Virus record (IMG/VR): IMGVR_UViG_3300027506_000012
Span: 1 to 32,744 of that record
DNA from: a virus
Direction: 5' to 3' (one strand)
Length of the DNA: 32,744 bases
Shown: in pieces, positions 8,601 to 32,744 of the stretch
Layout: each line of letters starts with the position of its first letter
Position numbering within the stretch: the first letter of the stretch is position 1
Translations under genes and position numbers: made by a program
The notes under the pieces: generated by a model
The model's database searches: none
The model's input: only the letters and a program-made list of their open reading frames with translations
Told to the model about the DNA's origin: nothing

Positions 8601-8794
8601 ATATCTTTGTCCTTGATGAGCCCGGAACGGCACTTGACGAAGAAAATATGCAAGGCTTCGTGGATATTCTATCTATTATCAGAAATTATTTTAAAACAGT
8701 TTTATTAATCTCGCATCTTGACACGTTGAAAGACTGTGTTGACATGCAAATAACAATTGACAAAAAAGACGGCTATGCATCCGTTAATGCATAA
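5642..8794 (+). CDS. sbcD-sbcC: Mre11-Rad50 (SbcD-SbcC, T4 gp47-gp46) single-chain fusion
   Basis: One uninterrupted 1050-residue frame joins two normally separate proteins. Residues 1 to about 330 are a Mre11/SbcD metallophosphoesterase: D8-T-H10, G43-D44, G78-N79-H80-D81, H148 in LYHGS, and D182-I-H184. Residues from about 366 are a Rad50/SbcC ATPase: Walker A G398KNYSGKS405, long coiled coils, a variant hook C722-X6-C729, ABC signature around S962GAEK, Walker B D992-E993 and an ISH loop. The complex processes DNA ends for recombination-dependent replication; in T4 genes 47 and 46 are adjacent in this same order. The start is TTG 5642, set by AGGAG at 5629-5633 with 8-nt spacing. The third metal-site motif reads GDIH, where many Mre11 proteins have GHIH. 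T4 gp47 plus gp46 total about 900 residues, so this is a little longer. Confidence 0.92.
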   Translation: MKFAHIADTHIKNLKFHYEYGIVFEKLYETLKKENVDYIIHCGDIAHTKTQISPEFVEMCTKFFRNLADIAPTYIILGNHDGNLKNSSRQDALTPIAEALEHPRLHLLKDSGEVILDNFAALNVLSVFDEDNWVSPSDPKKVNIALYHGSISGVKTDTGYIMTHGEHPIEIFEGHDYAFLGDIHKTNQLLDEEGRIRYCGSTVQQNHGETNDKGYLVWDIEDKENFTCKHVVLQNPIPFVTINLTPKGKMPKGIQVPEGCRLRLVTQNNLPLDVMRRATDIAKRRFNPVAITRLNRSQGERGSVQDMAGDLEVQDLRDVEIQEKLIKEYLKDYEVEPELMDDVLALNSKYNKIAEDNEEISRNVNWKLQSLEFDNLFNYGESNYIDFKNLSGIVGIFGKNYSGKSSIIDSLLFTMFNSTSKNDRKNLNVINQNKEACLGKAVISIGNLNYTIERTATKYIKKLKGETTTEAKTDTDFSVYCPIEDDFESLNGTTRNETDKNIRKVFGNLDDFLHSSMASQLDSLSFIKEGSTKRKEILANFLDLKFFDSKYKLANDDSAHISIERKKLENRDFNQEILELKMDLSEKEVELKQKKRLCKEYKQNTQECATQVALINEKIGSIPAEVIDVVKVRANLNHKKSQMVSTRDQVQDDKQVRDAKKNEYRAICDFLETYSRDSLYGQRENIENLRHDIVGLQGKLQTERNDKSRNEKRVKLLDGIPCGTSFPTCKFIKDALVAEANIPENEKLIDTIQASIDLIDEQVASMDPKLVDTKIQAYEKIVSERDGLSNNITNLDLKIDKNEACISTLLVEIERLEDKVSEYETNKDAIENLESLNTKLASLQYDHKNYEIKGEKCNNQILNLYKAVGSCEEKVNFIEEQKASFDALQKEYSAYDLYKQCMHPNGIAFDVIRKKLPVINEEIGKILSNIVDFEVFFEDDGKRLEIFIKHPLYDPRPLEMGSGAEKTISAMAIRLALLSVSSLPKGDIFVLDEPGTALDEENMQGFVDILSIIRNYFKTVLLISHLDTLKDCVDMQITIDKKDGYASVNA

Positions 8795-12073: not shown

Positions 12074-13663
12074 ATGTCTTACACACTCTCCAAAAAAGAG
12101 ATAGTAGCTGAAATATTGAAATGCGGCAAAGACCCTGTTTACTTTATTGATAACTACGCAAGAATATCTCACCCAATTCACGGCTTGATCCCTTTTAAGA
12201 CTTATCCTTATCAGGGAGAGTTACTACAAGACTTTAATGATTATCGTTTTAATGTAATACTGAAGGCCCGACAGTTAGGAATCTCAACTATCGCAGCAGC
12301 ATATGTTGTATGGCTGATGCTATTCCATAGAGACAAGAATATCCTTGTTATGGCCACAAAATTCAAAACAGCTTCCAACTTGGTGAAAAAAGTTAAGGCT
12401 ATCATGAAAAATTTGCCAGAGTGGATTGTGATTTCTGAAATCTCGATAGACAATCGCTCCTCTTTCGAGCTGTCCAATGGTTCCCAAATACAAGCTGCCT
12501 CCACCTCTGGCGATGCCGGTCGTTCAGAGGCTCTATCTTTGTTGGTAATTGATGAGGCAGCCCATGTAGAAAATCTTGATGAGTTATGGGCGGGTCTTTA
12601 TCCCACTATCTCTACTGGTGGGCGAGTTATAGCCTTGAGTACTCCAAATGGTGTGGGTAACTGGTTTCACAAAACATACACGGAGGCCTCCGAAGGATCT
12701 AACGACTTTCATCCGATCGATCTAGCTTGGGATGTTCACCCCGATAGAGATCAGGAGTGGTTCAATAAAGAAACTAGAAACATGTCCCGACGAGAAATAG
12801 CTCAAGAGCTGGAGTGCAACTTTAATACTTCAGGAGAGTCTGTAATTCACCCCGATGACATCGCTTGGGTAGAGAGTAACGTAACCGATCCGAAATATCG
12901 CACTGGATTTGATAGGAATATGTGGATCTGGGAACAATATCAGGCAGATAGTACATATCTTCTGGTAGCAGATGTCGCGAGAGGCGACGGAGCTGATTAT
13001 TCTGTATTTCATATAATTAAATTAGAGACAATGGAGGTAGTGGCAGAATATCAAGGAAAGCCCAACTTGGATATGTACTCCACTATCCTCATGCAAGCCG
13101 GAAAGGAATTTGGAAACTGTCTCTTGGTGGTTGAAAATGTGGGAATAGGGATTTCCGTTTTGGAAAAGTTAATTGATCTGCAATATCCTAATCTATATTA
13201 CTCCGTAAAAGGATCTCATGAGTTTATCGACGGCTATCAAGCCGAGACAAACAACGCAGCGGTACCCGGATTTACAACTTCTTCCAAAACGCGACCACTA
13301 ATCGTAGCAAAACTGGAAGAATTCATCAGAAACAAACTAATTAAGGTATATTCTGTTCGTTTTTCTAATGAATTGCGAACCTTTATTTGGCATAATGGCA
13401 AACCTCAAGCGATGAGAGGATACAACGACGACCTGACAATGGCGTTAGCAATCGCATGCTGGGTCCGAGACACAGCACTTACTGTAAATCAAAGAGAGGC
13501 AGATTATAAAAAAGCATGCTTAGGTTCAATAATTAAAGTTGATACAAAAGTAAATACAACAATCCCCGGAATGCACGGCTACAATAGAAAAGAGGCCCTA
13601 GACGACAAAATGTTCAAGGCACAAGAAGATTATGAAAAATACTCATGGCTTATTAAAGGATAG
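12074..13663 (+). CDS. terL: Terminase large subunit (T4 gp17-like packaging motor)
   Basis: This 529-residue protein has both terminase domains. The N-terminal ATPase has a Walker A-like loop K64ARQLGIST72, Walker B LLVID160E161 and the coupling motif ALSTPNG (about 187-193). The C-terminal RNase H-like nuclease has D300 (LLVADVARGDGADYS), E354 (LVVENVG) and D452/D453 (GYNDDLTMA). It powers DNA translocation into the prohead and cuts the concatemer. T4 gp17 is 610 residues; this one starts close to the ATPase domain, so it is shorter at the N-terminus. No small terminase subunit is recognised in the window. The portal gene starts 3 nt downstream. Confidence 0.95.
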   Translation: MSYTLSKKEIVAEILKCGKDPVYFIDNYARISHPIHGLIPFKTYPYQGELLQDFNDYRFNVILKARQLGISTIAAAYVVWLMLFHRDKNILVMATKFKTASNLVKKVKAIMKNLPEWIVISEISIDNRSSFELSNGSQIQAASTSGDAGRSEALSLLVIDEAAHVENLDELWAGLYPTISTGGRVIALSTPNGVGNWFHKTYTEASEGSNDFHPIDLAWDVHPDRDQEWFNKETRNMSRREIAQELECNFNTSGESVIHPDDIAWVESNVTDPKYRTGFDRNMWIWEQYQADSTYLLVADVARGDGADYSVFHIIKLETMEVVAEYQGKPNLDMYSTILMQAGKEFGNCLLVVENVGIGISVLEKLIDLQYPNLYYSVKGSHEFIDGYQAETNNAAVPGFTTSSKTRPLIVAKLEEFIRNKLIKVYSVRFSNELRTFIWHNGKPQAMRGYNDDLTMALAIACWVRDTALTVNQREADYKKACLGSIIKVDTKVNTTIPGMHGYNRKEALDDKMFKAQEDYEKYSWLIKG

Positions 13664-13666
13664 AAA

Positions 13667-15628
13667 ATGGCTGATAACAAGAAAAACCCCAACAATCCGC
13701 AATCTGAATTATACAGAAGGCTAACCCGATTATTCTCCGGACCAATTGTGAACTGGAGAACACAGATGAATCGAAAGATTCGCAGAACTGCCTTGGATAA
13801 ATATGCTACAGACTTTAGATCTGCCAGCGGACAACAATTTAAAAAAGCGGAATATTCTCCTTTTGATGTTATGCATTCTAAAATCATGGCACAGCAAAAC
13901 CGTGCTGAAAGATATATCGACTATGAGCAGATGGAATATATGCCTGAAATCGCCTCTGCCCTTGATATTTACGCTGACGAGATGACCACTCACTCATCAC
14001 TATCGCCGATGATGCACATTGAGTGCCCTAACGAGGAAATCAAGGCGGTTCTACAATCTTTATATGAGAACGTCCTTAACATTGATCACAATCTCTTTGG
14101 CTGGTGCCGCTCAATGTGTAAATTTGGTGATTTCATTCTCTATATGGACATTGACGACTCCTTCGGAGTGAAATCTGTAATTCCAATTCCTCTGCGAGAA
14201 GTAGAAAGAATGGAAGGCGAAGATCCAACCAATCCAAATTACGTCCAATACCAATGGAATTCCGCAGGAATGACTTTCGAGAATTGGCAAGTCGCGCATT
14301 TTCGTATCTTAGGTAATGATAAATATACTCCATATGGAACCTCTGTTTTAGATCCGGGCCGCAGAATTTGGCGGCAATTAGTATTAATGGAAGACGCGAT
14401 GATGGCTTATCGTATCGTTAGGTCTTCTGAAAGAAGGGTGTTCTATATCGATGTTGGCAATATTGCGCCCAATGACGTAGAACAATTTGTACAAAAAACA
14501 ATCACCTCAATGAAAAGAAATCAAGTGGTTGATGCCCAAACCGGACGAGTGGATTTAAGATATAACCCGCTATCAGTTGAAGAGGATTATTTTATTCCCA
14601 TTCGCGGCGGCGAGTCTTCAAAAATTGAGACTCTAGCTGGCGGACAGTTTACTGGTGATATTGATGATGTTAAGTATTTAAGAGATAAGATGTTTTCTGC
14701 GCTTAAAATCCCTGCTCCATACTTATCAAGCGGCGATGAGGCAAGTGAAGATAAGACATCTCTCGCACAGAAAGATGTCAGGTTCGCGAGAACAATACAA
14801 AGACTACAACGTGCTGTTATTTCAGAACTGGAAAAAATTGGTATTGTTCACCTTTACACTCTGGGTTTCAAAGGCGACGACTTGGTAAGCTTTCGCTTAA
14901 GATTGAACAACCCCTCTAAGATCGCTGAATTACAAGAGCTAGAGCATTGGAAGACCAAATTTGATATTGCTGGCGGAGCAACGGAAAACTTCTTTTCTAG
15001 AAGATGGATAGCTCAAAACATCTTTAGTCTATCTGAAGAGGAATTTGTGAGGAACCAGCGCGAAATGTATTCGGATAGAAAATATGAAGCAGAGCTTAAC
15101 GCCGCTGCAGAAGCTGCGGGCGAAGCCGCAGCAGGTAATTTTGGCGGATCCGCAGAAAGCGGCTTGGATGTTGAATCTCCGGATGACGAGGGCGACTTTG
15201 ACACGGATACCGATATGGAGGAACCCGATGTAGAGATTGATGTCGAGACTGATGATACAGGATCGGAGGAGCCACTTTTAGCAGCCCCCGCAAAGAGAGA
15301 TGATCGTGGTCGAAAGTACACACAAAACTCCATGAGGGCAAAGGCAAAAGGAAAAAAATATGCCCCTTCTATGCAGGGCGATCGCCGCTCATCAGCAGGC
15401 TCCTTAAAGAACAGAAAAGGCGCAGCAATACCTGCAGGGACGCAAACAGGGCTCCCGGCTGGTATGGAGACCTTGAGAACATTTTCGAGAGGAAGCATTT
15501 ATGAGGTTAAGCAGACTACTTATAACAAAGAAGAGGAATTACTCTTCGAGGCTAATGCCAAAGTTAGAGATCTGATATTAGATTTAGAAAAAGCGGAGAT
15601 TCATACAAATGAAGATGAAACACAATAA
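13667..15628 (+). CDS. 20: Portal protein (T4 gp20-like) with long acidic C-terminal extension
   Basis: This 653-residue protein matches T4-type portal features: N-terminal basic region, YIDYEQMEYMPEIASALDIYADE, the stem/clip region with ERRVFYIDVGN, and KIPAPYLSSGDEASEDKTSLAQ. It forms the dodecameric ring through which DNA is packaged. T4 gp20 is about 524 residues; the excess is a tail from about residue 475, with an Ala-rich stretch, an Asp/Glu-rich stretch (DDEGDFDTDTDMEEPDVEI), then a basic, Gly/Ser-rich segment and a final helix. The last 20 nt overlap the next gene. Position right after terminase is the usual T4 order. Confidence 0.93.
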   Translation: MADNKKNPNNPQSELYRRLTRLFSGPIVNWRTQMNRKIRRTALDKYATDFRSASGQQFKKAEYSPFDVMHSKIMAQQNRAERYIDYEQMEYMPEIASALDIYADEMTTHSSLSPMMHIECPNEEIKAVLQSLYENVLNIDHNLFGWCRSMCKFGDFILYMDIDDSFGVKSVIPIPLREVERMEGEDPTNPNYVQYQWNSAGMTFENWQVAHFRILGNDKYTPYGTSVLDPGRRIWRQLVLMEDAMMAYRIVRSSERRVFYIDVGNIAPNDVEQFVQKTITSMKRNQVVDAQTGRVDLRYNPLSVEEDYFIPIRGGESSKIETLAGGQFTGDIDDVKYLRDKMFSALKIPAPYLSSGDEASEDKTSLAQKDVRFARTIQRLQRAVISELEKIGIVHLYTLGFKGDDLVSFRLRLNNPSKIAELQELEHWKTKFDIAGGATENFFSRRWIAQNIFSLSEEEFVRNQREMYSDRKYEAELNAAAEAAGEAAAGNFGGSAESGLDVESPDDEGDFDTDTDMEEPDVEIDVETDDTGSEEPLLAAPAKRDDRGRKYTQNSMRAKAKGKKYAPSMQGDRRSSAGSLKNRKGAAIPAGTQTGLPAGMETLRTFSRGSIYEVKQTTYNKEEELLFEANAKVRDLILDLEKAEIHTNEDETQ

Positions 15629-20143: not shown

Positions 20144-21871
20144 ATGTCAATTATTAATAAACTAACAGAAGGCATCGTAAGACGAGACCTCTCCAAAGAG
20201 GGATCAGCTCTTCTCAACAAGTGGGAAAAAACTGGTCTTTTGGAAGGAATTTCTAACGATCGCAGTCGTCAAGGTATGGCCGCACTTCTAGAAAATCAAG
20301 CAAAGGAGCTTCTTCGTGAATCTGCTTCTTCAATGGGATCCGGAGATGTTGAAGGCTTCGCTTCAGTAGCGTTTCCAATTGTTCGTCGTGTTTTCGGCGG
20401 ATTAATCGCTAACGACCTTGTTTCTGTCCAGCCAATGAGCTTGCCATCTGGCCTCATTTTCTTCTTGGACTTCACTTTAGACTCTGCACGTCTTGACTAC
20501 ACAGCTGATACTTCAGTGTACGGTGGTGGAGTTATTGGTCAGCAAATCACTGGCGGTGTTTCACTCGCTGGCGATTTGGCCGAACAAAGCTTCTACTCTT
20601 TGAACAACGGCTACTCATCTCCAACTGCTTCAGTTGCCACTACACCAACTCGTTTGGCTTTTGCTTCGGGTACAGTGGGTGGCTCTTGGACCAGTACAGC
20701 CGGCACCGGACTTGCTATGGATTCTGCCGTTTTGAACGACAGTTTGATGCGATTCGACCCAGATATTGCTTCTGGAACAGCTGTGGTGGTTATTGAATAT
20801 CCATTATCTACATTCACAGATGGACAGTTTAACATCAAGGATTATGTGACAATTACTTCAACTGCCCTTGGCACCACCGTTGCCCAAGCAGATCAAGTTC
20901 GTCGTCTTACTCGCGATTCTCCTAACAGCTCCAATGGCGCAGGGAACATCATTCTTGTCTGGGCAGACGGAACAGATACAGTCGCTCTTGAAACTAGTGT
21001 AAAGCTCAACAATGTTAGTGCCTCATTCATCATTGATGACAACTTCACTCAAGGAACAGGCGTTCCGGGTTCAGTTGCAGGTACTTCACAATGGGGCTTG
21101 GAAAACAATCCAAACATCCCAGAAATCGACATCAAAGTTGACTCTGTTGCTGTTACAGCAAAGACCAAGAAGCTTAAAGCTAAGTGGACACCAGAATTGG
21201 CTCAAGACTTGAACGCATACCATAACTTGGATGCCGAAGTTGAGTTGACTTCTATCCTTTCAGAGCACATCGCTCTTGAGATCGACCAAGAAATCTTGGA
21301 AGACCTCGTGAAAGGTGCCACTGCAGCCACTCTTTACTGGTCGCGTTTGCCCGGTAAATTCGTCAACCGCAGAACTGGTACGGCACCGGGAACATCCGTT
21401 GTTGCATATCCTGATTTCACAGGTAATGTTTCAGAATGGTATGAAACCTTGGCTGAAACCATTAATGATGTTTCTGCACAGATCCATCGCAAGACCCTAA
21501 GAGGCGGCGCAAACTTTGTAGTTTGTTCTCCAGAAGTTGCCAACCTCCTTGAGTTCACTGCGGGATTCCGTGGAAGCGTAACACATGACGATGATCGCGG
21601 AGAAATCGGCGCAATCAAGGTTGGTTCTTTGAGTAAGAAATTCGACGTTTACGTTGATCCCTACTTCCCAAGAAACGTTGTCTTGGTTGGTCGTAAAGGC
21701 TCGTCTTTCCTCGAAAGTGGATATGTCTATGCCCCATACGTTCCACTCCAGATGACTCCAACAATCTTCGGAACAGAGGATTTCGTGCCACGTAAGGGTG
21801 TCATGACTCGTTATGCGAAGAAAATGGTTCGTCCAGATATGTACGGATTAGTTATCGTAGAAGATCTATAA
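20144..21871 (+). CDS. 23: Major capsid protein (T4 gp23-like)
   Basis: This 575-residue protein starts behind AAAGGAG. It shows T4-type capsid features: an N-terminal helical propeptide, then GDVEGFASVAFPIVRRVFGGL, LPSGLIFFLDF and a C-terminal domain ending FVPRKGVMTRYAKKMVRPDMYG. L57-R58-E59 followed by S60 fits the (L/I)-x-E preference of the maturation protease and is near the T4 gp23 cut (residue 65), so cleavage there is predicted. A second site at L48-L49-E50 is possible. The length exceeds T4 gp23 (521). Codons look well used, as expected for a highly expressed gene. A terminator follows. Confidence 0.96.
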   Translation: MSIINKLTEGIVRRDLSKEGSALLNKWEKTGLLEGISNDRSRQGMAALLENQAKELLRESASSMGSGDVEGFASVAFPIVRRVFGGLIANDLVSVQPMSLPSGLIFFLDFTLDSARLDYTADTSVYGGGVIGQQITGGVSLAGDLAEQSFYSLNNGYSSPTASVATTPTRLAFASGTVGGSWTSTAGTGLAMDSAVLNDSLMRFDPDIASGTAVVVIEYPLSTFTDGQFNIKDYVTITSTALGTTVAQADQVRRLTRDSPNSSNGAGNIILVWADGTDTVALETSVKLNNVSASFIIDDNFTQGTGVPGSVAGTSQWGLENNPNIPEIDIKVDSVAVTAKTKKLKAKWTPELAQDLNAYHNLDAEVELTSILSEHIALEIDQEILEDLVKGATAATLYWSRLPGKFVNRRTGTAPGTSVVAYPDFTGNVSEWYETLAETINDVSAQIHRKTLRGGANFVVCSPEVANLLEFTAGFRGSVTHDDDRGEIGAIKVGSLSKKFDVYVDPYFPRNVVLVGRKGSSFLESGYVYAPYVPLQMTPTIFGTEDFVPRKGVMTRYAKKMVRPDMYGLVIVEDL

Positions 21872-21903: not shown

Positions 21904-21930
21904 CCCTTCCACATTTTGTGGAGGGGTTTT
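21904..21930 (+). terminator. Rho-independent terminator after the major capsid gene
   Basis: A 9-bp stem (CCCTTCCAC paired with GTGGAGGGG, one G-U pair) with a 5-nt ATTTT loop is followed by TTTT. It lies 32 nt after the capsid stop. The T-tract is short, so it may be leaky and allow read-through into the neck genes, for which no clear promoter is seen. Confidence 0.8.
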
Positions 21931-21970
21931 GTGCTTCTGGGAACTACTTAGAATTAGGAGAAAAATTATA

Positions 21971-23239
21971 ATGGCATTTCCAACTTTAACCCCTGCTAGT
22001 CAAATGAGCAAGTCAATATTGCCCGCTACTGGGACAGTTACTGAAGTCGCAGCACTCCTTCCACTGGAAGTTTATTCTGATTCGGGACAGTTCTTATCAG
22101 GAGCAGCTGATCAAGTAGCCTTTACATACAAGAAAATAGGCGGAGATGTATTAGATATAGAGCTGAAGCCGGGTAATGTATACGCCAACTATCAAGAGGC
22201 AGTTTTAGAATATAGTTATTTGGTCAACCTCCATCAATCTAAAAATATTTTATCGGATGTCTTAGGACAAACTACAGGTACCTTTGACCACGAAGGGCAG
22301 AGGCTTACTGGCCCAGAAAACGTTAATTTAAAGTTTCCTAGAGTATCTTTTGAGTATGAACGACGGGTTTCAGATGCTTATTCGACAGAAGCGGGAATCG
22401 GAGGCACCATTCCTATCTACTCCGCTTCTTTTGATCTAGAGCAGGGCCGACAAGATTACAACTTGCAAGAAATAATTTCTGGCTCCTCTGCGACCGGTAC
22501 CGATGCCAACGGTAATCCAGCCCCATATGCGGGTATCGTTGGCGACAAAAGAGTGATTGTTAAGAAAGTCTATTACAAGACCCCTAATGCGATGTGGAGG
22601 TTTTTCGGGTATTTCGGAGGGCTTAATGTCGTAGGTAACTTAAATAATTATGGACAATATACGGACGATTCTACATTCGAAGTCATACCCACTTGGCAGA
22701 ACAAGCTCCAAGCCATGGCATACGAGGATAACATCTATACAAGACTGTCTCATTATTCATACGAGCTTAAAGACAATCACCTCAGAATATTCCCCGCACC
22801 AGCGATATTTTCGGACTATACCAATATGTGGGTAGATTTTTCAATCATACCTGATGCTTGGGTAGAAACTGGAACTACAGATACCGGAATTTCTGGTATC
22901 AACAACATGAATACACTTCCTTTCGACAACCTGCCTTATGACAATATTAACGCTATCGGAAAGCAGTGGATCAGAAGGTTTGCCCTAGCCTTGTCTAAAG
23001 AAACTTTGGCGCAAATAAGAGGAAAGTTTCAAACGATACCGATTCCCGGCGAATCCGTAACATTGAACGCCGATGCACTAATGAGTCAAGCCAAAGAAGA
23101 ACAAGAAAAACTAAAAGAAGAACTTAAAACAATCTTGGACGAGTTAACATATGTTGAACTATCTAAGAAGGACGCGGAAAAATCTGAATCCACCAATCAG
23201 GTTCAGAAGAGAGTCCCATTATTAATATTCCAAGGATAA
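21971..23239 (+). CDS. Virion structural protein, neck/connector candidate
   Basis: ATG 21971 is chosen, with AGGAG 21956-21960 upstream, giving 422 residues; the frame stays open back to 21929 inside the terminator, but no start there is credible. The protein is mixed alpha/beta. A C-terminal part (YDNINAIGKQWIRRFALALSKETL, split here by position about 345-370) is followed by PIPGESVTLNADALM and a charged helix. I recall this arrangement from T4-like phage structural proteins next to the neck. Position directly after the capsid gene supports a neck (gp13-like) or head-completion role. Which T4 gene it replaces is uncertain. Confidence 0.7.
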   Translation: MAFPTLTPASQMSKSILPATGTVTEVAALLPLEVYSDSGQFLSGAADQVAFTYKKIGGDVLDIELKPGNVYANYQEAVLEYSYLVNLHQSKNILSDVLGQTTGTFDHEGQRLTGPENVNLKFPRVSFEYERRVSDAYSTEAGIGGTIPIYSASFDLEQGRQDYNLQEIISGSSATGTDANGNPAPYAGIVGDKRVIVKKVYYKTPNAMWRFFGYFGGLNVVGNLNNYGQYTDDSTFEVIPTWQNKLQAMAYEDNIYTRLSHYSYELKDNHLRIFPAPAIFSDYTNMWVDFSIIPDAWVETGTTDTGISGINNMNTLPFDNLPYDNINAIGKQWIRRFALALSKETLAQIRGKFQTIPIPGESVTLNADALMSQAKEEQEKLKEELKTILDELTYVELSKKDAEKSESTNQVQKRVPLLIFQG

Positions 23240-23243
23240 ATTT

Positions 23244-24113
23244 ATGAGCAGTAGAGACGATAAATATTCTGGTTTCAGACCATATTTTAAAGATACTTCT
23301 CCGAAGAAAGAAGTTCCTCCTATAAAGGAGATAACATTTCTTCCCTCGACAATTGAGACAGTCGATACTGCTCTTTATAACTGGATTAATGAAGCTTTAA
23401 ACATCTTTTGTACCACCAACGAAGGATGGAAGAAAGTGCCTCTCATTTGGTCAATGCCCGAGCGTTCGTTTCAAATCAAAGATAACAAAGATTTACGCTC
23501 TCACAATGTCTTCACACTACCAGCAATAAGTATTGATAGAACAGCGGTCGTCAAAGATCCCAACATGAAGGGTGTCGCTTGGTCACATATTCCTCGTATA
23601 AACGATGCTAAAGGCGGCGCAATCACCGTAGCAAGGAGACTACAGCAGGAAAAAACTGCTAACTTTCAAAATGCCGATGCACAGAGGCTCTTTAAGCAGC
23701 CTACTTATCCATACGAGAGCGACAAAGCTGTATACGAAGTAATAACAATGCCGCTACCCACGTATGTGGTGATGACATATAAATTAATAATCAATACTGA
23801 ATATCAACAGCAAATGAATGAGATTGTCACTCCCTTTTTGGCATATACAGGACAAATTAACAACTTCTTCATCAATCACGATGGCCACCGTTTCGAAGGA
23901 TTCGTCGATGGCACCATGGGCTTGGAAAATAATATAGCCAATCTAGGAGATGAAGAGCGAAAATTCAAGACGAGTATTGATTTAAAAATCTTAGGGTATT
24001 TAATGGGATCCGCTGCCAATGATAACCAGCCAAAGATAACGATTAGAGAATCAGCAGCACAACTCCGTATCATTCGAGAGAGAGTGATATTCGGCGATAA
24101 GAAGGACTATTAA
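23244..24113 (+). CDS. Virion structural protein, neck/tail-completion candidate
   Basis: This 289-residue soluble protein begins 4 nt after the previous stop, with AAGGA upstream. Features are a Pro-rich N-terminus (FRPYFKDTSPKKEVPPIKE), VPLIWSMPERSFQIKD and a central MPLPTYVVMTYKLIINTEYQQQ. There is no catalytic motif. The middle of the protein looks like a beta-rich connector fold. It lies between two neck candidates and has the right size for a T4 neck or tail-terminator protein (gp14 256, gp15 272, gp13 309 residues). The assignment is by position and size only. Confidence 0.65.
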   Translation: MSSRDDKYSGFRPYFKDTSPKKEVPPIKEITFLPSTIETVDTALYNWINEALNIFCTTNEGWKKVPLIWSMPERSFQIKDNKDLRSHNVFTLPAISIDRTAVVKDPNMKGVAWSHIPRINDAKGGAITVARRLQQEKTANFQNADAQRLFKQPTYPYESDKAVYEVITMPLPTYVVMTYKLIINTEYQQQMNEIVTPFLAYTGQINNFFINHDGHRFEGFVDGTMGLENNIANLGDEERKFKTSIDLKILGYLMGSAANDNQPKITIRESAAQLRIIRERVIFGDKKDY

Positions 24114-24114
24114 G

Positions 24115-25032
24115 ATGGCAGATAATAAGTGGACTAGGCCTGCAAATCCGCCTCCTCCTTTATTTTTAGGTCAGAAGGAGAGGAACTTAGTAAAGCAGGT
24201 CAACGACGAGCTGCTGGAAAGAGTAATCGGCCAGCAGATTCTATATCTTCCTGTTTCGATGGAATACTCTAACTTTCACCCTCTATATGGAGAGGCTATT
24301 GAAAAATGTTTCTTGCCTCCCATTCGGGCATATGTGCTCGTGGATTTTGAAGCTATCGAGACAACAACAGAGAACTTTGGTCTAGATAAAATGCACACCA
24401 TAAACGTAAAGTTTCATGAAAGAAGGTTGCATGAAGATCAAGATACCTATATCCGGGAAGGGGATTATATCCAATATGGTCACTCATTTTATGAAATTGT
24501 AACCCTCACGGAAGACAGACCTTTGTTTGGACAAGTAGATCATCTTTTTCAAATTATAGCTAAGTGTGTGAGGACAAGAAAGGGACTACTGGACTTTGAG
24601 GTTCTGGACACTCGCATACAAGATGCCGCCATCGCTAACGCAGAAATTACAGGAACAGTAGCTGCAGAGGCTTCTGGAGAAAGTTCTAGCAGCGAATCCG
24701 AAGATGAAGCTGTCGCTCCTTATACTACAGCGGCCAAGATTGTCCACGGCGCAGAGGATTCTGAATCGTCAACTGCGGGAATCTTATCAGGAACAATTTC
24801 TCCCGGCACTAGTGTCAATGACTTCTTTTCTATTCCAGAGGGCCAAGTCCTTGATCCAGATACGATAATGGTGTTCTTAAACGGTATTTTACAACTACTT
24901 ACTAGTGTAGAGGCTTCTGGAGATTTTTATATCAACGAAAGCAATCAGATAATAACTAATTATGAGCTGGAACCCGGAGACAGCCTAATCGTCGTCTTTT
25001 TATCCGCCATTACTTCTTATTTCGGAGGCTAA
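24115..25032 (+). CDS. Virion structural protein, neck/head-closure candidate with C-terminal extension
   Basis: This 305-residue protein starts 1 nt after the previous stop. The N-terminal two thirds (KERNLVKQVNDELLERVIGQ, LYLPVSMEYSNFHPLYGEA, DYIQYGHSFYEIVTLTED) look like a T4 gp14-type neck or head-closure protein. After a Ser/Glu/Ala-rich linker (about 182-206), a small beta domain follows, with DPDTIMVFLNGILQLL and LEPGDSLIVVFLSAI. The GGAGG at its 3' end (25024-25028) serves as the ribosome site of the next gene, yeaH, so the stress trio is joined to the neck genes. Confidence 0.68.
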   Translation: MADNKWTRPANPPPPLFLGQKERNLVKQVNDELLERVIGQQILYLPVSMEYSNFHPLYGEAIEKCFLPPIRAYVLVDFEAIETTTENFGLDKMHTINVKFHERRLHEDQDTYIREGDYIQYGHSFYEIVTLTEDRPLFGQVDHLFQIIAKCVRTRKGLLDFEVLDTRIQDAAIANAEITGTVAAEASGESSSSESEDEAVAPYTTAAKIVHGAEDSESSTAGILSGTISPGTSVNDFFSIPEGQVLDPDTIMVFLNGILQLLTSVEASGDFYINESNQIITNYELEPGDSLIVVFLSAITSYFGG

Positions 25033-25033
25033 T

Positions 25034-26242
25034 TTGAGTATTTTTAGAGAACATAAATCGCATGCAGACCGATCTGCTGCGGACAGAAAAAGACACAAAG
25101 AAAAAATTGATAAAGCCATCAAGGAAGGCATAAGAGATGTCATCGCAGATGAGTCAATAATCGGCCAAGATGGTAAGAAGAAGATAAAGATACCCGTCAA
25201 GGGAATCAAAGAATATCACTTTGTTTATGGTGAAAATGAAAAAAACCAGAAAACAGGTTCCGCCGGCGACAAAAAGATCAAAAGAGGACAAGTCTTGAGA
25301 AAAGGGGCCAAGAAGCAGAAAGCTGCAGGAAAAAAAGGCTCTGATAAGGCGGGCGAAGAGTATTACGATGTGGAAGTCACCCTAGATGAATTAGCGGAAT
25401 ATTTATTCCAAGACCTAGAGCTTCCAGACTTAGAAAAGAAGAGATTTAGGCTTATTAAATCCCACAAACCCAAAAGAAGCGGATTTAGAAAAAAGGGAAT
25501 GAGATCTCGATTAGCCAAAAAAGAGACAATCAAAAGAAAGATAAGAAGAAAGAAGATGGCCATCGCCTCTGGCGCGTTTGATCCCGAGTCTGGAGAGAGA
25601 TTTCCTTTTCACCAAGACGACTTAAAATATAAGCACACAAAGCTTAAACCTCAAGAGAATAACTCTGCGGTCATCTTTTTTGTTATGGATGTATCAGGCT
25701 CAATGGGAAAAGAAAAGAAGTACATGGCCCGCAGCTTCTATTTCCTTTTGTATCAGTTTTTAAGATATAAATACGACAATGTAGAAGTGGTATTTATTTC
25801 CCATTCGACTGAGGCGAAGGAAGTGAGTGAGGATGACTTCTTCAAGAGGGGCACCATGGGAGGGACAGTCATGTCCTCTGCACTACAACTCACTAAGGAT
25901 ATCATAACCAAGAGATATCACCCTTCTAGTTGGAATATATATACTTTTTACTCCGGAGACGGCGAAAACTGGTCTTTCGACGACGAAAAGACTGTCAACC
26001 TCTTCAGAGAGCTGAAAGAACTCAGCCAGATGATGTGTTATGCTGAAATAGATCCGCAATCGTTCCCCGAACAGGGAGCCTATGGTATCTTAAACAAATC
26101 ATTTAGTTATAATCAGAGCGAAGCAACCAATTTGTGGAAAAAGCTGAGTCCAATTATCGATGAAGGCTTCAAGAGGCTTAGGATAACAAAACCAGCCCAT
26201 ATTTGGCCTTCTTTTAAACTACTGTTCGGAGGAAAGTCATGA
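25034..26242 (+). CDS. yeaH: YeaH/YhbH family protein (DUF444) with VWA-like domain
   Basis: This 402-residue protein starts at TTG 25034, set by GGAGG 25024-25028 inside the preceding gene. The N-terminal half is very basic and Lys-rich, with REHKSHADRSAADRKRHKEK, the typical opening of this family. The C-terminal half is a von Willebrand A-like domain with an intact metal site D219-x-S221-x-S223 (MDVSGSMG) and GTMGGTVMSSAL. Bacterial YeaH is about 427 residues and is encoded with the PrkA/YeaG kinase, as here. It is linked to starvation and stationary-phase responses; its biochemical role is not settled. It overlaps spoVR by 4 nt (ATGA). Confidence 0.92.
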   Translation: MSIFREHKSHADRSAADRKRHKEKIDKAIKEGIRDVIADESIIGQDGKKKIKIPVKGIKEYHFVYGENEKNQKTGSAGDKKIKRGQVLRKGAKKQKAAGKKGSDKAGEEYYDVEVTLDELAEYLFQDLELPDLEKKRFRLIKSHKPKRSGFRKKGMRSRLAKKETIKRKIRRKKMAIASGAFDPESGERFPFHQDDLKYKHTKLKPQENNSAVIFFVMDVSGSMGKEKKYMARSFYFLLYQFLRYKYDNVEVVFISHSTEAKEVSEDDFFKRGTMGGTVMSSALQLTKDIITKRYHPSSWNIYTFYSGDGENWSFDDEKTVNLFRELKELSQMMCYAEIDPQSFPEQGAYGILNKSFSYNQSEATNLWKKLSPIIDEGFKRLRITKPAHIWPSFKLLFGGKS

Positions 26243-27540
26243 AAGATTGGTCAATTAAAGAACTGCAGGATTGGGATGATGAGATCTGCAAGATTGCCAA
26301 AGAAAAATACAATTTAGATTGGTTCCCTATCGAGTACGAGATTTTGAATTATCGCGAAATGATCGGAGCCATGGCTTATACTGGGCTCCCTACCCACTAC
26401 CGGCACTGGTCTTTTGGCAAGTCTTTCGAAAGGACTATCACTAGATATAACCTCGGCATGGAGGGCCTCCCCTATGAGATGATTATTAATTCTAACCCAT
26501 CGATTGCATACTTAATGTTAGAAAATCCTATGAGTACCCACCTGCTAACGATGGCCCACTGTGTTGGTCACTCTGACTTCTTCAAAAACAACAGGATGTT
26601 CACTTATACAGATCCAGATAACGTTATATCTCGCTTTAAGTCAGCCGGCAAACGTGTTCAGCAATATATTGAGAACCCGAGTATCGGGATTGATAAGGTG
26701 GAGCGCATCTTGGATGCGTGCCATGCAGTTCAGTACCAAATTCCTCGTACACCCGGAATTAAAAGGCTTAGCCAAGATGAGGCTAGAAGAGACTTATTTA
26801 AGAAAACTCAAGGTAAATTAGATTTATCAGTAGGTTTGGTGCAGAAAGACTACAATCTGTTGGGATTTATTCGAGAGAATGCTCGTAACTTAGAAGATTG
26901 GCAAAAGGATCTTATTGAGATGGTGGAGAGAAGATCGAAGTATTTTGTCCCCCAAGCCCAGACTAAAATCATGAACGAGGGGTGGGCAGTTCTTATACAC
27001 GAGAAAATTATGTATGATTTGGGTTTGCCTGACAAATATCATTTAGCATTTTTAAAGACACACAATCAGGTGGTCAGGCCTATCGTGGGAAGGGTAAATC
27101 CTTACCATTTAGGATATACCCTGTTCAAGAAAATTGAGAAAGAACACGGATTTGAAGAGTGTTTGCTTGTTAGGGAGACACACGACGATGAATCTTTTAT
27201 TCGTAAATATTTAGACGAAAAAGTCTGCGAGGAACTCAATTTATTTAATTATTCTATGGATAAGCACAGTGGAAATTACTCAATTAAGGAAATTTCTGAT
27301 AAAGAAGGGTGGAAAAGCGTCCGCGACGGTCTAATTAGTAATATAGGACTAAATGGAGTTCCGGTTGTTCATGTTGAAGATTATGAAAAGAAGACAAATA
27401 CGCTTTTTATTAAACACGAGCATGATGGACGAGATTTGGAGCTATCACACGCAAACAAAGTTTATGACCACATTTGCTATTTGTGGAACGATAACGTAGA
27501 ATTTATAACGCTCATTGAGGATGAGCTATGGGAATTTTAA
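26239..27540 (+). CDS. spoVR: SpoVR family protein (YcgB-like)
   Basis: This 433-residue protein overlaps yeaH by 4 nt (ATGA). It has family signatures: LDWFPIEYEILNYREMI, P51THYRHWSFGK61, YEMIINSNPSIAYLML, H107CVGHSDFFKNN and KIMNEGWAVLIHEKIM, HDDESFIRKYLD. SpoVR/YcgB proteins are cytosolic; in Bacillus they affect spore cortex formation, and in proteobacteria they are co-conserved with PrkA and YeaH. The activity is not established. E. coli YcgB is about 510 and B. subtilis SpoVR about 468 residues, so the phage copy is somewhat short. The conserved core appears intact. Confidence 0.93.
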   Translation: MKDWSIKELQDWDDEICKIAKEKYNLDWFPIEYEILNYREMIGAMAYTGLPTHYRHWSFGKSFERTITRYNLGMEGLPYEMIINSNPSIAYLMLENPMSTHLLTMAHCVGHSDFFKNNRMFTYTDPDNVISRFKSAGKRVQQYIENPSIGIDKVERILDACHAVQYQIPRTPGIKRLSQDEARRDLFKKTQGKLDLSVGLVQKDYNLLGFIRENARNLEDWQKDLIEMVERRSKYFVPQAQTKIMNEGWAVLIHEKIMYDLGLPDKYHLAFLKTHNQVVRPIVGRVNPYHLGYTLFKKIEKEHGFEECLLVRETHDDESFIRKYLDEKVCEELNLFNYSMDKHSGNYSIKEISDKEGWKSVRDGLISNIGLNGVPVVHVEDYEKKTNTLFIKHEHDGRDLELSHANKVYDHICYLWNDNVEFITLIEDELWEF

Positions 27541-27541
27541 A

Positions 27542-29482
27542 ATGAGTAAATCAAAAACTAATAAATTTTTAGAAATTGCTGAAAAGCACAAGAAAGGAAG
27601 TAAGAGGGAAAAGTTTTCTGGAGTATTCTCTGATTATCTAGCGATGGTCGAAGAGGATAAGAAGATTACTATGCTAGCCCACAAGAGATTGTATACAACA
27701 ATTACCGGAGAAGGAATCACCAGAATGTCTGAAGAGGATTCTAGATGTTCTAATCTATTTGGCGGCGAAGCCCTCAAAACTTATGATTATTTTCAGAGCA
27801 AATTCTTTGGAATGGAGAGATCCTTAGCCAAAATCATGAGATACTTGCACTCCGCATCCATGAAAGGTGAAGAAAGCAAGCAAGTCTTGTTATTATTGGG
27901 GCCGGTTGGAGCCGGCAAATCTGCCCTCGTGGAACATATTAAAAGAGCACTGGAAAACAGTGGTGCTTTGTACGCTCTTGACGGATGTCCAATTAATGAA
28001 GAGCCTCTACACTTAGTTCCCAGAAGCTTGCGTGATAAATTTCAAGAATTGTATGGAATGAAGATCGAAGGTGATCTTTGTCCAGTATGTCGTCACAGGC
28101 TATTAGAAGAATTCGGAGGAGATTATATGAACTTCCCAGTCTCCGAAAAGAGTTTCTCCATTCGTGGCCGAAGAGGTATCGGAGTTGTTCCTCCCATGGA
28201 TGCGAACACACAGGATACAAGCATCCTAGTAGGGTCAGAGGACATTTCAAAATTAGACCTCTATCCGGAAGACGATCCTCGTGCCCTAAGCCTAAATGGG
28301 GCCTTCAACGTAGGAAATCGTGGAATTGTTGAGTTTGTTGAGGTTTTCAAGAACGAAATTGAATTCTTACACACAATGATTACCGCAACACAAGAAAAAG
28401 CAGTCCCATCGCCCGGTAAAGGTGCCATGATTTACTTTGACGGTGTTATCCTCGCACACTGTAACGAAGCTGAGTGGATTAAATTTAAATCAGAGAACAC
28501 CAATGAGGCGATTCTTGACAGGATTGTAAGAGTTAATGTTCCTTACTGCTTGGAAGTTAGTGAAGAACAGAAGATTTATCAGAAGATGCTCGATGAGTCC
28601 GACTTTGATGCGCATATTGCACCGCACACACTTGAAGTAGCAGCGATGTTCTCTGTCTTGACAAGGCTCAAAGCTTCCAACAAGGTCGACCCAATGACTA
28701 AAATGAAGATTTATGACGGACAAGAAGTGGTGGAAAAAGGATATATTAAGAAAATTGATATTGATGATCTACGTGAAGAAGTCCGCGACGAGGGTATGAC
28801 AGGGATCTCAACAAGGTTCATTATGAAGTCAATTGACGCTGCGGTAGCCGATTCTGACAATAATATGGTGACTCCCATCTCCATTAGAGACGCACTTGTC
28901 AAGCAAGTGAAGGAGCAGGTTGTCGTCGAGGACCTAAGAGAGAAATATTTATCCTTCCTGCAGAAAGAGCTGCATGATGAATACCTAAGCATGCTAGAAA
29001 CGGAAATTACTAAAGCCTTTGTATCGGCTTACCAAGAGCAGGCAGAATCGCTGTTTAATAACTATCTTGACCATGCGGAAGCATATGTCAATGGATCAAA
29101 AGTCAAGGATAAGATAACAAACGAAGAGATGCAAGCAGATGAAGAGTTCCTATGTTCCATTGAAGAGCAAATTGGCATAGTTGGATCATCCCGTGAGAAT
29201 TTCAGAGCAGACATCACAGCTTACATGTTTGCAAAGCTTAGAAAAGGCGAGCAGATTGACTGGACATCATACGGGCCACTCAAAGAAGCTATAGAGAACA
29301 AATTGTTAACTTCAGTTCGTGACATTTCCAGAATTGTAACAAAATCGAAGTCTAGAGATAAGAAACAGCAAGGTAAATACAACGAGATGATCAAAACCTT
29401 GATGGATGAATACGGATATAATGAAGCTTCGGCTACAGAAGTTATCAAGTACGCTTCCAACAATCTCTGGAGAGATAGCTAA
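27542..29482 (+). CDS. prkA: PrkA/YeaG-type serine protein kinase with AAA-like domain
   Basis: ATG 27542 gives 646 residues, essentially the length of E. coli YeaG (644). In-frame codons back to 27515 lie inside spoVR and are rejected. An AAA-type ATPase domain has Walker A G120PVGAGKS127, then NEEPLHLVPRSLRDKF, C180-P-V-C183, NRGIVEFVEVFKNEIEF and NEAILDRIVRVNVPYCLEVSEEQ. The C-terminal part corresponds to the PrkA kinase-like domain. In bacteria PrkA autophosphorylates and, with YeaH, is induced under nutrient stress. It begins 1 nt after spoVR and is the last gene before a strong terminator. There is no sign of decay. Confidence 0.94.
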   Translation: MSKSKTNKFLEIAEKHKKGSKREKFSGVFSDYLAMVEEDKKITMLAHKRLYTTITGEGITRMSEEDSRCSNLFGGEALKTYDYFQSKFFGMERSLAKIMRYLHSASMKGEESKQVLLLLGPVGAGKSALVEHIKRALENSGALYALDGCPINEEPLHLVPRSLRDKFQELYGMKIEGDLCPVCRHRLLEEFGGDYMNFPVSEKSFSIRGRRGIGVVPPMDANTQDTSILVGSEDISKLDLYPEDDPRALSLNGAFNVGNRGIVEFVEVFKNEIEFLHTMITATQEKAVPSPGKGAMIYFDGVILAHCNEAEWIKFKSENTNEAILDRIVRVNVPYCLEVSEEQKIYQKMLDESDFDAHIAPHTLEVAAMFSVLTRLKASNKVDPMTKMKIYDGQEVVEKGYIKKIDIDDLREEVRDEGMTGISTRFIMKSIDAAVADSDNNMVTPISIRDALVKQVKEQVVVEDLREKYLSFLQKELHDEYLSMLETEITKAFVSAYQEQAESLFNNYLDHAEAYVNGSKVKDKITNEEMQADEEFLCSIEEQIGIVGSSRENFRADITAYMFAKLRKGEQIDWTSYGPLKEAIENKLLTSVRDISRIVTKSKSRDKKQQGKYNEMIKTLMDEYGYNEASATEVIKYASNNLWRDS

Positions 29483-29518: not shown

Positions 29519-29554
29519 AGTCTTGTAAGGAAACTTACAAGGCTATTTTTTTTT
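29519..29554 (+). terminator. Strong rho-independent terminator after prkA
   Basis: An 11-bp stem (AGTCTTGTAAG paired with CTTACAAGGCT, one G-U pair) closes a GAAA tetraloop (29530-29533). After one A comes a run of nine T (29546-29554). It is 36 nt after the prkA stop and ends the long transcript of the neck and stress-trio genes. Confidence 0.93.
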
Positions 29555-29782: not shown

Positions 29783-29824
29783 ATGAAATTAAATAATAAT
29801 AAGGAGGATCTAACATGTCTTTAA
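29783..29824 (+). CDS. Possible 13-codon leader peptide overlapping the fibre start
   Basis: ATG 29783 has a good site (AAAGGAG, with GGAG 29771-29774, 8 nt spacing) and opens MKLNNNKEDLTCL, ending at TAA 29822-29824. This overlaps the start of the fibre gene at ATG 29815 by 10 nt in another frame. The fibre's own AGGAGG (29802-29807) is inside it. Such an arrangement could couple translation of the fibre to the leader. It could equally be a chance ATG. Confidence 0.3.
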   Translation: MKLNNNKEDLTCL

Positions 29825-32744
29825 TTACCAATCTTGTTGCCACTTGGAACTTTGATGATGACACAGGTGACGATTCCGTAGGTTCGGCAAACGGCACAGT
29901 AACAGATCTCACCTACGCAACAGCGGACGGCATAACTTATGCAGAAGCTGATGGTAGTGGGAACAAAATGGACTTAGGCACCCCTGCCGCTTTGGACTTG
30001 GGAACTTCCGATTTCACTATCTCCGGATGGGCGAATATGGATGCTATTCCAACAGGAGCATCGGGCGCAATCCTTTACAATAAGGGTATGACGACCCAGA
30101 GCTGGCCAAAGTTTAACGGAGCCCAGATAAGTTTTTATCAAGGCAATGCTAGGTTCTTCGTCGGTGGTCAAGGCTCCTATACTGTGATCACTGAACCTAT
30201 GTCTACTGGACAATGGTACCACTTTATGGGCACACGTTCTGGCACAACAATGAAATTCTATGTCAATGGAGTTCTTGTTGACACAAAAGATACCGGCACC
30301 GTAAAAGATGTAACCTCTTCGTTGAACGGCACTATCTTTTCCAATTATAATGGAAGTTGGTATACAGATGCCTTTGACGGAAAATTAGCCGACATTAGAA
30401 TTTGGTCAAGAGCTTTGTCAGATGGCGAAGCCGCTTCGGTCCACACAACTGGCCCAGAAGCTTCTCTTGCATCTAGTCTTGTTGCAAAATATCCTCTGGA
30501 TTCAGATGGTGTCCCTTCAGTTGGTGATGTAACTTTTACAGCATCAAATGTCACTTATGGTGCAGGTGAATCGTTTTCGACTTTCGCAAACCAGAACAGT
30601 GGATACTATGTTGACTCACCGTATTTGGATCTTGCTAATGAATATACTTTATCATTTTGGTTCAAAAACCTAAAAAGCAGAGCAGCCGCTCCATACGGTT
30701 TCTTAATGGCAGCAGCCTATAATAAAGAAACTGGCGGAGTGGGAGGTTACACTTACTGGGACCAAGACACCAATTATGATATTGTCATCTATACTAACGA
30801 TATGCTCGGTGCGTATGGACACGCGAATGCGAGTGCAGGAGCGAGCACCCTTAATAGCACAGGATATCAGATGACACAGGCTCTATATAATGGAACTGGT
30901 TGGCATCATATGGCTTGCGCGTTTTCCGGTGGACAGATGACCTACTACATTAACGGTGTTCAGGTAGGTGTCCCAGTATCGACAACAGGTATGGATAAGT
31001 TGCAAACTATCGGTTCTTATACTGATATGAATTATGCGGCTTTCGAATATATGGACGACTTCCGTGTATATAATAAAGCCATATCCGCCGCCGATGCAGT
31101 CGTATTACACGAAGAAGGTGCAGAAGCACCAGCCGCACCAGCCGCGCCAACCATCGACTTGAGCGTCGCCCAGTTCGATTCTTATGGTGATAGTTGGAAC
31201 GGAGGTAGCATTACAATCGCTGATGCCAACGGTGTCGCAGTTCTCACCTCCAATGGTCCGGGAAGTGGTGTCAAAGCACCAGCTGGATTAACAGAGACAG
31301 TCTCTGTCGAGGAGGGAGTATATACATACACCATAGCTCCCGGCGGCTACCCGAACGAGATATCAGCTACTATTACCGATCAGTATGGTACTTTATTGGC
31401 TAACCTTGTTGGAGGATCAGGTACAGGAACGTTTACCGTGTCTATGCCTGTCTCAGTCATTACTCCGGTATTGTCTGCTAGTGGCGGAGATATAACAGTG
31501 TCTGCTACTCTCAACACGGAAGCGATTACAGCAGGAGCCACCCAATGGGCCTACTCCTTGTCTGCTCTGGGAGCCGTAGGGCAACCACATGGCGGAACTT
31601 TAGTCGCTTTAAACGGATCTGCAACAGTTACTCCTGCATCCTTGGGGATGCATACTGTTTATGTCGCAGCTGTTGACGCAGCAGGAAACGTGGTCGTAGA
31701 TAACTCGGATACCATCGATAATTCACCATCCGTATCTGTAACTATTGTGAAAACTGACTCATACAATGACGGTTGGGATGGCTCCACTTGCGTGATCACT
31801 CATGTCGGTACAGGTAATGTTTTACACAATGAAACACTTGCGAGTGGTGTGTCTCCAGAGACTATCCTATTAGATTTGCCATATGGCGATTATACATGGG
31901 CTCTCGTAGGCGGAAGTTATATCGGCGAGCATTCGCTATCAATTACTCTGACCTCTGACGGGTCAGTATTAGCAACTAGTGCCGCATCGACACCTTTAAG
32001 TGGAACATTTACTGTAGCAGCCCCAGCAGCAGCTATCACTCCTTCTACTTCTGTGTCAGGAGCAGCTATAACTGTTTCGGCAACTGTAAATGCAGTAGCC
32101 ACGGCAGAAGGCGCAGCAAACTGGTCAGCATCTCTGACTGGATTTGGAGCAGTTGGTGCAACAATTGATGGTGCGAAAGCATTGACAACTATTGGTGTAG
32201 ATGCAGCTCTTACTGCCCCATCGGGTGGTTCTCATTCAGTATATGTAGCAGTAGTTAATGATTCAGGGGTTATCCTTGCAAAAGCTGATACATCAGTTGA
32301 TATTTTCATCTCACAACTAAGCGTTGGTGATGACATTATCATCATGTCCTACTTAGAGCATCCTTCACTCTCACCAACTGGTACACACGATCAGATGACC
32401 GATGACGATGGAGACCTCAAATATGGACCAATCTATATTGGAGATTTAACCATCAAATCCCTGTCTATAAATAGCGCGGATAGCGATGAAATAGTTACTG
32501 ATGTAACTTTTGAGGACCCCAATGGAGGCGATCTAGATCTTGATGCACTTGTAATAGAGCTTATCAAGAAATATAACCTAAATTTGCTATCAGGTGTTCA
32601 AGCTTCTGACGGAGCAGTTTTTCAATCGGTTGTTGACGGCACAGCAGGTTTCAGTGCATCTGCCCTTCTCTCATGGAATGCCGAAGATACAAATACAACC
32701 ATGCTTCCTTCAGGCGGCGGTCACTATGCTGAATATGATGCTGT
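29815..32744 (+). CDS. Large LamG-domain adhesin / tail-fibre protein (3' end outside window)
   Basis: ATG 29815 follows a near-ideal AGGAGG (29802-29807). The frame is open for 976 codons to the right edge, so the gene continues. Domain 1 (residues about 2-215) is a LamG/concanavalin-like fold: LVATWNFDDDTGDDSVGSA, SDFTISGWANM, GQWYHFMGTRSG, MKFYVNGVLVDT, LADIRIWSRALSDGE. Domain 2 (about 217-435) repeats it: LVAKYPLDSDG, TLSFWFKN, TGWHHMACAFSGG, MTYYINGVQVG, MDDFRVYNKAIS. A PAAPAAPAAP linker leads to two 179-residue repeats starting at DSYGDSWNG and DSYNDGWDG. LamG-like domains bind sugars or proteins, so this is a likely receptor-binding or surface-adhesion protein of the virion. After about residue 830 the protein becomes a different domain (LSVGDDIIIMSYLEHP). 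Confidence 0.88.
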   Translation, partial: MSLITNLVATWNFDDDTGDDSVGSANGTVTDLTYATADGITYAEADGSGNKMDLGTPAALDLGTSDFTISGWANMDAIPTGASGAILYNKGMTTQSWPKFNGAQISFYQGNARFFVGGQGSYTVITEPMSTGQWYHFMGTRSGTTMKFYVNGVLVDTKDTGTVKDVTSSLNGTIFSNYNGSWYTDAFDGKLADIRIWSRALSDGEAASVHTTGPEASLASSLVAKYPLDSDGVPSVGDVTFTASNVTYGAGESFSTFANQNSGYYVDSPYLDLANEYTLSFWFKNLKSRAAAPYGFLMAAAYNKETGGVGGYTYWDQDTNYDIVIYTNDMLGAYGHANASAGASTLNSTGYQMTQALYNGTGWHHMACAFSGGQMTYYINGVQVGVPVSTTGMDKLQTIGSYTDMNYAAFEYMDDFRVYNKAISAADAVVLHEEGAEAPAAPAAPTIDLSVAQFDSYGDSWNGGSITIADANGVAVLTSNGPGSGVKAPAGLTETVSVEEGVYTYTIAPGGYPNEISATITDQYGTLLANLVGGSGTGTFTVSMPVSVITPVLSASGGDITVSATLNTEAITAGATQWAYSLSALGAVGQPHGGTLVALNGSATVTPASLGMHTVYVAAVDAAGNVVVDNSDTIDNSPSVSVTIVKTDSYNDGWDGSTCVITHVGTGNVLHNETLASGVSPETILLDLPYGDYTWALVGGSYIGEHSLSITLTSDGSVLATSAASTPLSGTFTVAAPAAAITPSTSVSGAAITVSATVNAVATAEGAANWSASLTGFGAVGATIDGAKALTTIGVDAALTAPSGGSHSVYVAVVNDSGVILAKADTSVDIFISQLSVGDDIIIMSYLEHPSLSPTGTHDQMTDDDGDLKYGPIYIGDLTIKSLSINSADSDEIVTDVTFEDPNGGDLDLDALVIELIKKYNLNLLSGVQASDGAVFQSVVDGTAGFSASALLSWNAEDTNTTMLPSGGGHYAEYDA
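31177..32292 (+). repeat. Two diverged 179-residue protein repeats in the fibre gene
   Basis: Unit 1 (31177-31713) and unit 2 (31756-32292) are both 537 nt. Each opens with D-S-Y-(G/N)-D-(S/G)-W-(N/D)-G. Each then has GTFTV, A/S-(V/A)-ITP, a shared S-G-x-x-ITVSAT-(L/V)-N, GAVG, and (H)(T/S)VYVA-V. The Asp-rich opening motif could bind calcium. The DNA has diverged, so the duplication is not recent. Confidence 0.75.

Follow-up and report, generated by a model that had tools for sequence, protein, structure and literature searches.

What would a phage do with a complete bacterial starvation module? The question is raised by a 32.7-kb fragment of a T4-like, ocean-type phage (IMG/VR record IMGVR_UViG_3300027506_000012, positions 1 to 32,744), assigned as such by Pfam matches to its terminase, gp20-type portal and gp23-type capsid proteins. 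We refer to this whole stretch of DNA as the window. At positions 25034-29482, three consecutive genes encode YeaH, SpoVR and PrkA; all three frames are open and, by their Pfam assignments, full length, in agreement with the original prediction made from the sequence letters:

25034..26242, + strand: yeaH (DUF444), 402 aa, TTG start, Pfam DUF444 5e-107
26239..27540, + strand: spoVR, 433 aa, Pfam SpoVR 2.5e-116
27542..29482, + strand: prkA, 646 aa, AAA+ ATPase domain and PrkA C-terminal domain

We propose that the trio is a phage-owned, complete and selected copy of the bacterial PrkA-YeaH-SpoVR module, acquired in one uptake, and that it may act as an AAA+/VWA machine that holds a starved host slowed but intact. 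We put the probability of this reading at roughly 45%. It is the best explanation we have for the domains, trees, gene order and motifs described below, from which we infer the single uptake event, the exact donor and the mechanism.

The trio is widespread in marine viruses. In viral contigs, we located 37 close loci for PrkA and 120 for SpoVR, and a looser scan found at least 478 contigs encoding PrkA relatives. Among 100 deduplicated marine-type SpoVR contigs, 99 encode YeaH and 97 encode PrkA, always in the order yeaH-spoVR-prkA. In quick trees, built without bootstrap, the marine viral PrkA, SpoVR and YeaH sequences form one clade each (Shimodaira-Hasegawa-like approximate likelihood ratio test, SH-aLRT, 100, 99 and 99, respectively), which supports a clade of their own for the phage copies, as the original prediction had asked to be checked. 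Between the window and close relatives, the nonsynonymous divergence (dN) in the trio is 0.04-0.14, with synonymous change saturated or nearly so. The trio is a stable viral gene set, not a one-off. An assembly join between host and phage DNA, which the original prediction had named as one finding that would overturn it, is ruled out by the approximately 100 independent contigs that carry the viral-clade trio and by the separate clades. One apparent bacterial exception, a 306-kb contig (L123) filed under a Methylococcaceae metagenome-assembled genome, has its trio inside the viral clade and next to PhoH, NUDIX and LamG-like genes, and hence is probably a phage contig.

The donor is less clear. 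In the PrkA tree, the marine clade has Clostridia and an unplaced bacterium as neighbours, inside a group of Bacillota/Myxococcota type, whereas the group nearest to the marine clade in the SpoVR tree is proteobacterial-type; as the two trees give different neighbours, we are unsure of the source. The bacterial cluster (YeaG, YeaH and YcgB in E. coli; PrkA, YhbH and SpoVR in B. subtilis) resembles that of the phage in that the three families are adjacent, full length and equipped with the same catalytic motifs. It differs in gene order, and the phage proteins form their own clade. Nearly all of the clustered bacterial loci that we sampled read prkA-yeaH(yhbH)-spoVR, of which the phage order is a circular permutation, so the order was rightly flagged as unusual. 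The permuted order also occurs in a few thermophilic or acidophilic Bacillota (loci L148, L151, L152, L154 and L159).

Marine phages are not the only phages with these genes, and the earlier suggestion that the full trio had not been described in a phage does not hold for the databases. In Thermus phages phiYS40, TMA, phiLo, MN1 and Lalka8, the trio is arranged as in the window, although phiYS40 has an additional gene between its spoVR and prkA. Their PrkA is only about 33-35% identical to that of the window and falls in a separate, distant clade, and on this sequence evidence the Thermus-phage trio was probably taken up independently. All three families are also present, as in the window, in the huge uncultured phages LR745206, LR756502 and LR756504 and in one further contig (L041). 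There, the genes are in the bacterial order prkA-yeaH-spoVR where clustered (spoVR lies elsewhere in the LR756502 genome), and the sequences fall with proteobacterial or other bacterial ones. A single origin of all phage copies was rejected, as the marine, Thermus and huge-phage copies lie apart in the trees; these separate clades indicate that phages have taken up the module several times. The left end of an Enterobacter phage LAU1 record (MN688132.1, 1-3308; our locus L118) consists of yeaG-yeaH, which is probably host DNA that the phage carries or that was joined to it. Previous reports are partial: the Ralstonia jumbo phage RsoM2USA has SpoVR and PrkA (PMC8504454), and spoVR from ocean viromes is reported as an abundant viral gene in an oxygen-minimum zone (PMC8940887). 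Beyond the papers cited, the literature we searched contained none on the full trio in phages, nor did we find described there a large marine lineage with a fixed permuted order, a single clade and a capsid-linked subclade.

YeaH (Pfam PF04285, 358.9 bits against a gathering score of 27) has a basic, low-complexity N-terminal half followed by a VWA domain, and its predicted structure has the VWA fold (Z 17.8). The DxSxS metal site noted earlier proved to belong to an intact MIDAS (D219-x-S221-x-S223, T278 and D309), the residues of which are invariant in 45 viral and bacterial sequences. A sequence search for solved structures related to YeaH returned none; Foldseek matches include the VWA domain of NorD from the NorQ-NorD complex and the MIDAS domain of Rea1/MDN1. 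In NorQ/NorD, CbbQ/CbbO and Rea1, an AAA+ ATPase is paired with a VWA/MIDAS protein, as we propose for PrkA and YeaH. However, PrkA belongs to a different AAA+ family from NorQ, CbbQ and Rea1 and has its own C-terminal domain, and its partnership with YeaH is proposed by analogy.

Phage PrkA is a clear member of its family, with both AAA_PrkA (6e-149, 496 bits) and the PrkA C-terminal domain (4e-79, 266 bits) far above the cutoff of 25; the solved relatives found by sequence search are 9xip, 9xiq and 9xir. The Walker A Lys/Ser, the sensor Asn and the conserved Arg are invariant in 21 viral and 31 bacterial sequences. The description of the module as a stress-kinase fared less well. The K426A mutant of YeaG does not complement in E. 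coli (PMC4664914), and all 21 marine viral PrkA sequences have a lysine at this position. The 31 bacterial sequences, however, have K in 14, N in 10 and D in 7, and the Thermus phages have D; since the proposed kinase lysine varies across bacteria, it does not define the family. Kinase activity was not detectable in B. anthracis PrkA, and protease activity was negligible (PMC13001217). The name "kinase" is thus doubtful. We also observed a CxxC zinc-ribbon-like motif near CPVCRHRL, which about half of the marine viral PrkA sequences retain and the others have lost.

SpoVR (Pfam PF04293, 389 bits against a gathering score of 27) is well placed in its family, whereas its match to the C-terminal domain PF24755 scores under the cutoff (21.9 vs 27.6). 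The AlphaFold2 model (mean predicted local distance difference test, pLDDT, 93) has a predicted gluzincin-like metal-binding fold with the motifs H107xxxH111 and N246-E247-G248-x-A250. H107, H111 and E247 are invariant in 44/44 sequences, and the HxxxH and NEGxA motifs are also invariant. Foldseek found no significant match for this model, and a sequence search for solved structures related to SpoVR returned none. Of the 50 matches listed by a second structure aligner (best Z 12.2), the great majority were zinc peptidases or their ACE2-type homologues; a Z of 12 is close to the range reached by chance with helical models. The position of the catalytic glutamate of HExxH is occupied by V, C or A, which sets SpoVR apart from gluzincin zinc peptidases. 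The peptidase resemblance, seen by the second aligner and in the invariant motif, is one of fold only and is a lead rather than a result; the loss of the glutamate together with the retention of HxxxH and NEGxA suggests that SpoVR is a metal-binding protein with a probably non-peptidase role. SpoVR of B. subtilis binds RNA (PMC12456014).

Where the trio sits in the genome may bear on when it is made. The window has the following features around it:

12074-13663: terminase (Pfam)
13667-15628: portal gp20 (Pfam)
20144..21871, + strand: major capsid protein, T4 gp23 type, Pfam Gp23 5e-76
21929..25032, + strand: three genes (436, 289 and 305 aa) that follow the major capsid gene in conserved synteny and lie directly upstream of the trio
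25023..25027, + strand: yeaH ribosome-binding site GGAGG, read from the sequence, within the last codons of the upstream neck gene
29519..29544, + strand: intrinsic terminator, 11-bp stem, 4-base loop, then T-run

The gp23-type capsid protein identifies the carrier as a far T4-like phage; in comparisons of capsid and portal, its closest relatives in culture are Flavobacterium phage immuto and Microcystis phage Mel-JY01. The first of the three upstream genes (436 aa) matches the head-tail adaptor Ad2 in PHROG, and the order of all three, which form the operon context of the trio, is conserved in 26 contigs. The TTG start of yeaH (25034) lies one base past the stop codon of the last neck gene (25030-25032), and the placement of its GGAGG inside that gene was read correctly in the original prediction; in 24 of the 26 contigs, yeaH starts between 4 bases before and 10 bases after the neck-gene stop. 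The yeaH and spoVR genes overlap by 4 bases. For prkA, we prefer the ATG at 27542 (646 aa) over the TTG at 27515 (655 aa) chosen by the earlier reader: it lies one base past the spoVR stop and gives an N-terminus that matches those of relatives.

The terminator after the trio is as strong as had been claimed (-15.1 kcal/mol, z -4.1, with a T-run), and a terminator-like hairpin lies 3' of prkA in 13 of 19 neck-linked relatives, compared with 4/465 in a mononucleotide-shuffle control. That the genes have no promoter of their own, on the other hand, cannot be shown: sigma-70-like sites are at background level (27 found vs 25.9 expected). No exact match to the T4 late promoter TATAAATA occurs upstream of the trio, and exact copies of TATAAATA on the + strand are confined to the interior of yeaH (25766) and the vicinity of the contig end. 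An Rfam search gave no match. Elsewhere in the window, a single 1050-aa frame (5642-8794) joins an SbcD-like nuclease half to a following SbcC-like half, a fusion of the counterparts of T4 gp47 and gp46, and a LamG (concanavalin-like) fibre-type reading frame (29815-32744) runs off the contig end.

The junction with the neck genes might suggest a second reading, in which the AAA+/VWA pair is a morphogenesis chaperone that remodels neck, portal or tail proteins or aids particle maturation. This would explain the place of the trio at the end of the head/neck operon: in 26 of the 100 contigs, those nearest to the window, the trio comes after the capsid-neck genes, in 25 of them directly behind the last neck gene and mostly with a start-stop overlap. 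In the Thermus phage Lalka8, it lies between a minor head protein and TerL. However, the trio was not found beside those neck genes in the other 74 contigs (a few of which have little sequence upstream). Of 15 large contigs, 14 have a gene for a T4-type capsid protein, at about 6-7 kb from prkA if neck-linked but about 30-110 kb away in most others. Moreover, among relatives with this capsid-neck block whose sequence continues for more than 4 kb past the neck genes, 35 of 36 lack the trio there; in the cases read, the neck genes run directly into tail sheath or LamG fibre genes (in L308, LamG genes follow directly). Given these trio-less relatives, the trio is an accessory cassette, joined to the late operon in one subclade. 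Late synthesis with the virion proteins, as first supposed, is plausible for the neck-linked subclade (26/100) but not elsewhere. As the linkage is confined to this subclade, a virion role is less likely and not general. We consider a morphogenesis function unlikely.

Outside the neck-linked subclade, the trio has a different set of neighbours, with a diverged GroEL-like gene in addition to PhoH-PIN, NUDIX and helicase genes. This GroEL-like gene follows just after prkA in many sister phages (e.g. L233:11951-13318, L251:12258-13718 and L123:9165-10370) and encodes a protein of about 400-490 aa with no Pfam match (PHROG groEL, E 8e-25 to 9e-9). We rejected true GroEL as the direct neighbour of prkA; it is encoded elsewhere in many of these genomes. 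Another trio-carrying phage encodes a Tubulin/FtsZ-like protein (L244:15111-16439; Pfam Tubulin E 0.0014, under the cutoff).

We return to control of the host. In this scenario, an ancestor of the marine T4-like lineage would have taken up the module as one unit, perhaps from a relative of the Bacillota/Myxococcota-type family, although we are unsure of this donor. PrkA would assemble an AAA+ ATPase ring, with YeaH as its VWA/MIDAS adaptor (like NorD for NorQ, or the MIDAS domain for Rea1) and SpoVR as a metal-binding, RNA-associated third component or client. Together, they would remodel host factors such that a starved ocean host is kept slowed but intact through a long infection. In the subclade of the window, the trio would be translated from the end of the head/neck operon and so made late, while in sister phages it sits among host-homeostasis genes. 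In E. coli, YeaG and YeaH jointly brake metabolism in nitrogen starvation (PMC10954441, PMC4664914). This brake, the RNA binding of SpoVR, the abundance of viral spoVR, the NorD/Rea1 fold match and the PhoH-PIN and GroEL-like neighbours all count in favour of this reading, as do the full-length families in fixed order, the viral clades, the invariant ATPase and MIDAS residues and the low dN.

Several points weigh against it. We found no experiment on any phage copy of the trio (expression, virion or biochemistry) in the literature searched. The PrkA-YeaH partnership is drawn by analogy, and slowing the metabolism of the host could also be to the detriment of phage production. The neck-gene adjacency in 26 contigs may also point to morphogenesis. 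A more specific version is that SpoVR is a metal-dependent protein on a gluzincin fold without the catalytic glutamate, which PrkA-YeaH loads or activates in the way that NorQ-NorD serves nitric oxide reductase; with this machine, marine T4-like phages would impose a starvation-like state on the host, and viral spoVR would be unrelated to sporulation. We offer this as speculation that is itself unlikely to be right in full.

Two other functions could be imagined. The module might block host toxin-antitoxin or abortive responses, as YeaG has been reported to repress mqsRA and dinJ-yafQ. However, that effect is indirect and unexplained, and no defence-related genes were seen beside the trio, albeit with no systematic search; a role in counter-defence or anti-dormancy thus seems quite improbable. 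Alternatively, the proteins could be made late, packaged into the virion and injected so that they act as the next infection begins, for instance by waking or controlling dormant cells. The late-operon position in the subclade of the window would suit such an effector, but it is not general across the viral clade and no packaging signal is known (though none was searched for), leaving this very improbable indeed. Finally, ordinary host cargo or an assembly join without a viral role, as the LAU1 record appears to be, is refuted for the marine lineage by the separate clade formed across about 100 independent contigs, the fixed order, the intact motifs and the low dN.

A module used by many bacteria in starvation thus has a stable place in a large lineage of ocean phages. 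This lineage supplies many natural variants for finding which residues of the trio matter, and the phage trio offers a test of the role of the module outside sporulation. For viromes in which spoVR is counted as a "sporulation" auxiliary gene, we suggest that viral spoVR be regarded instead as one of the three parts of a PrkA-YeaH-SpoVR unit.
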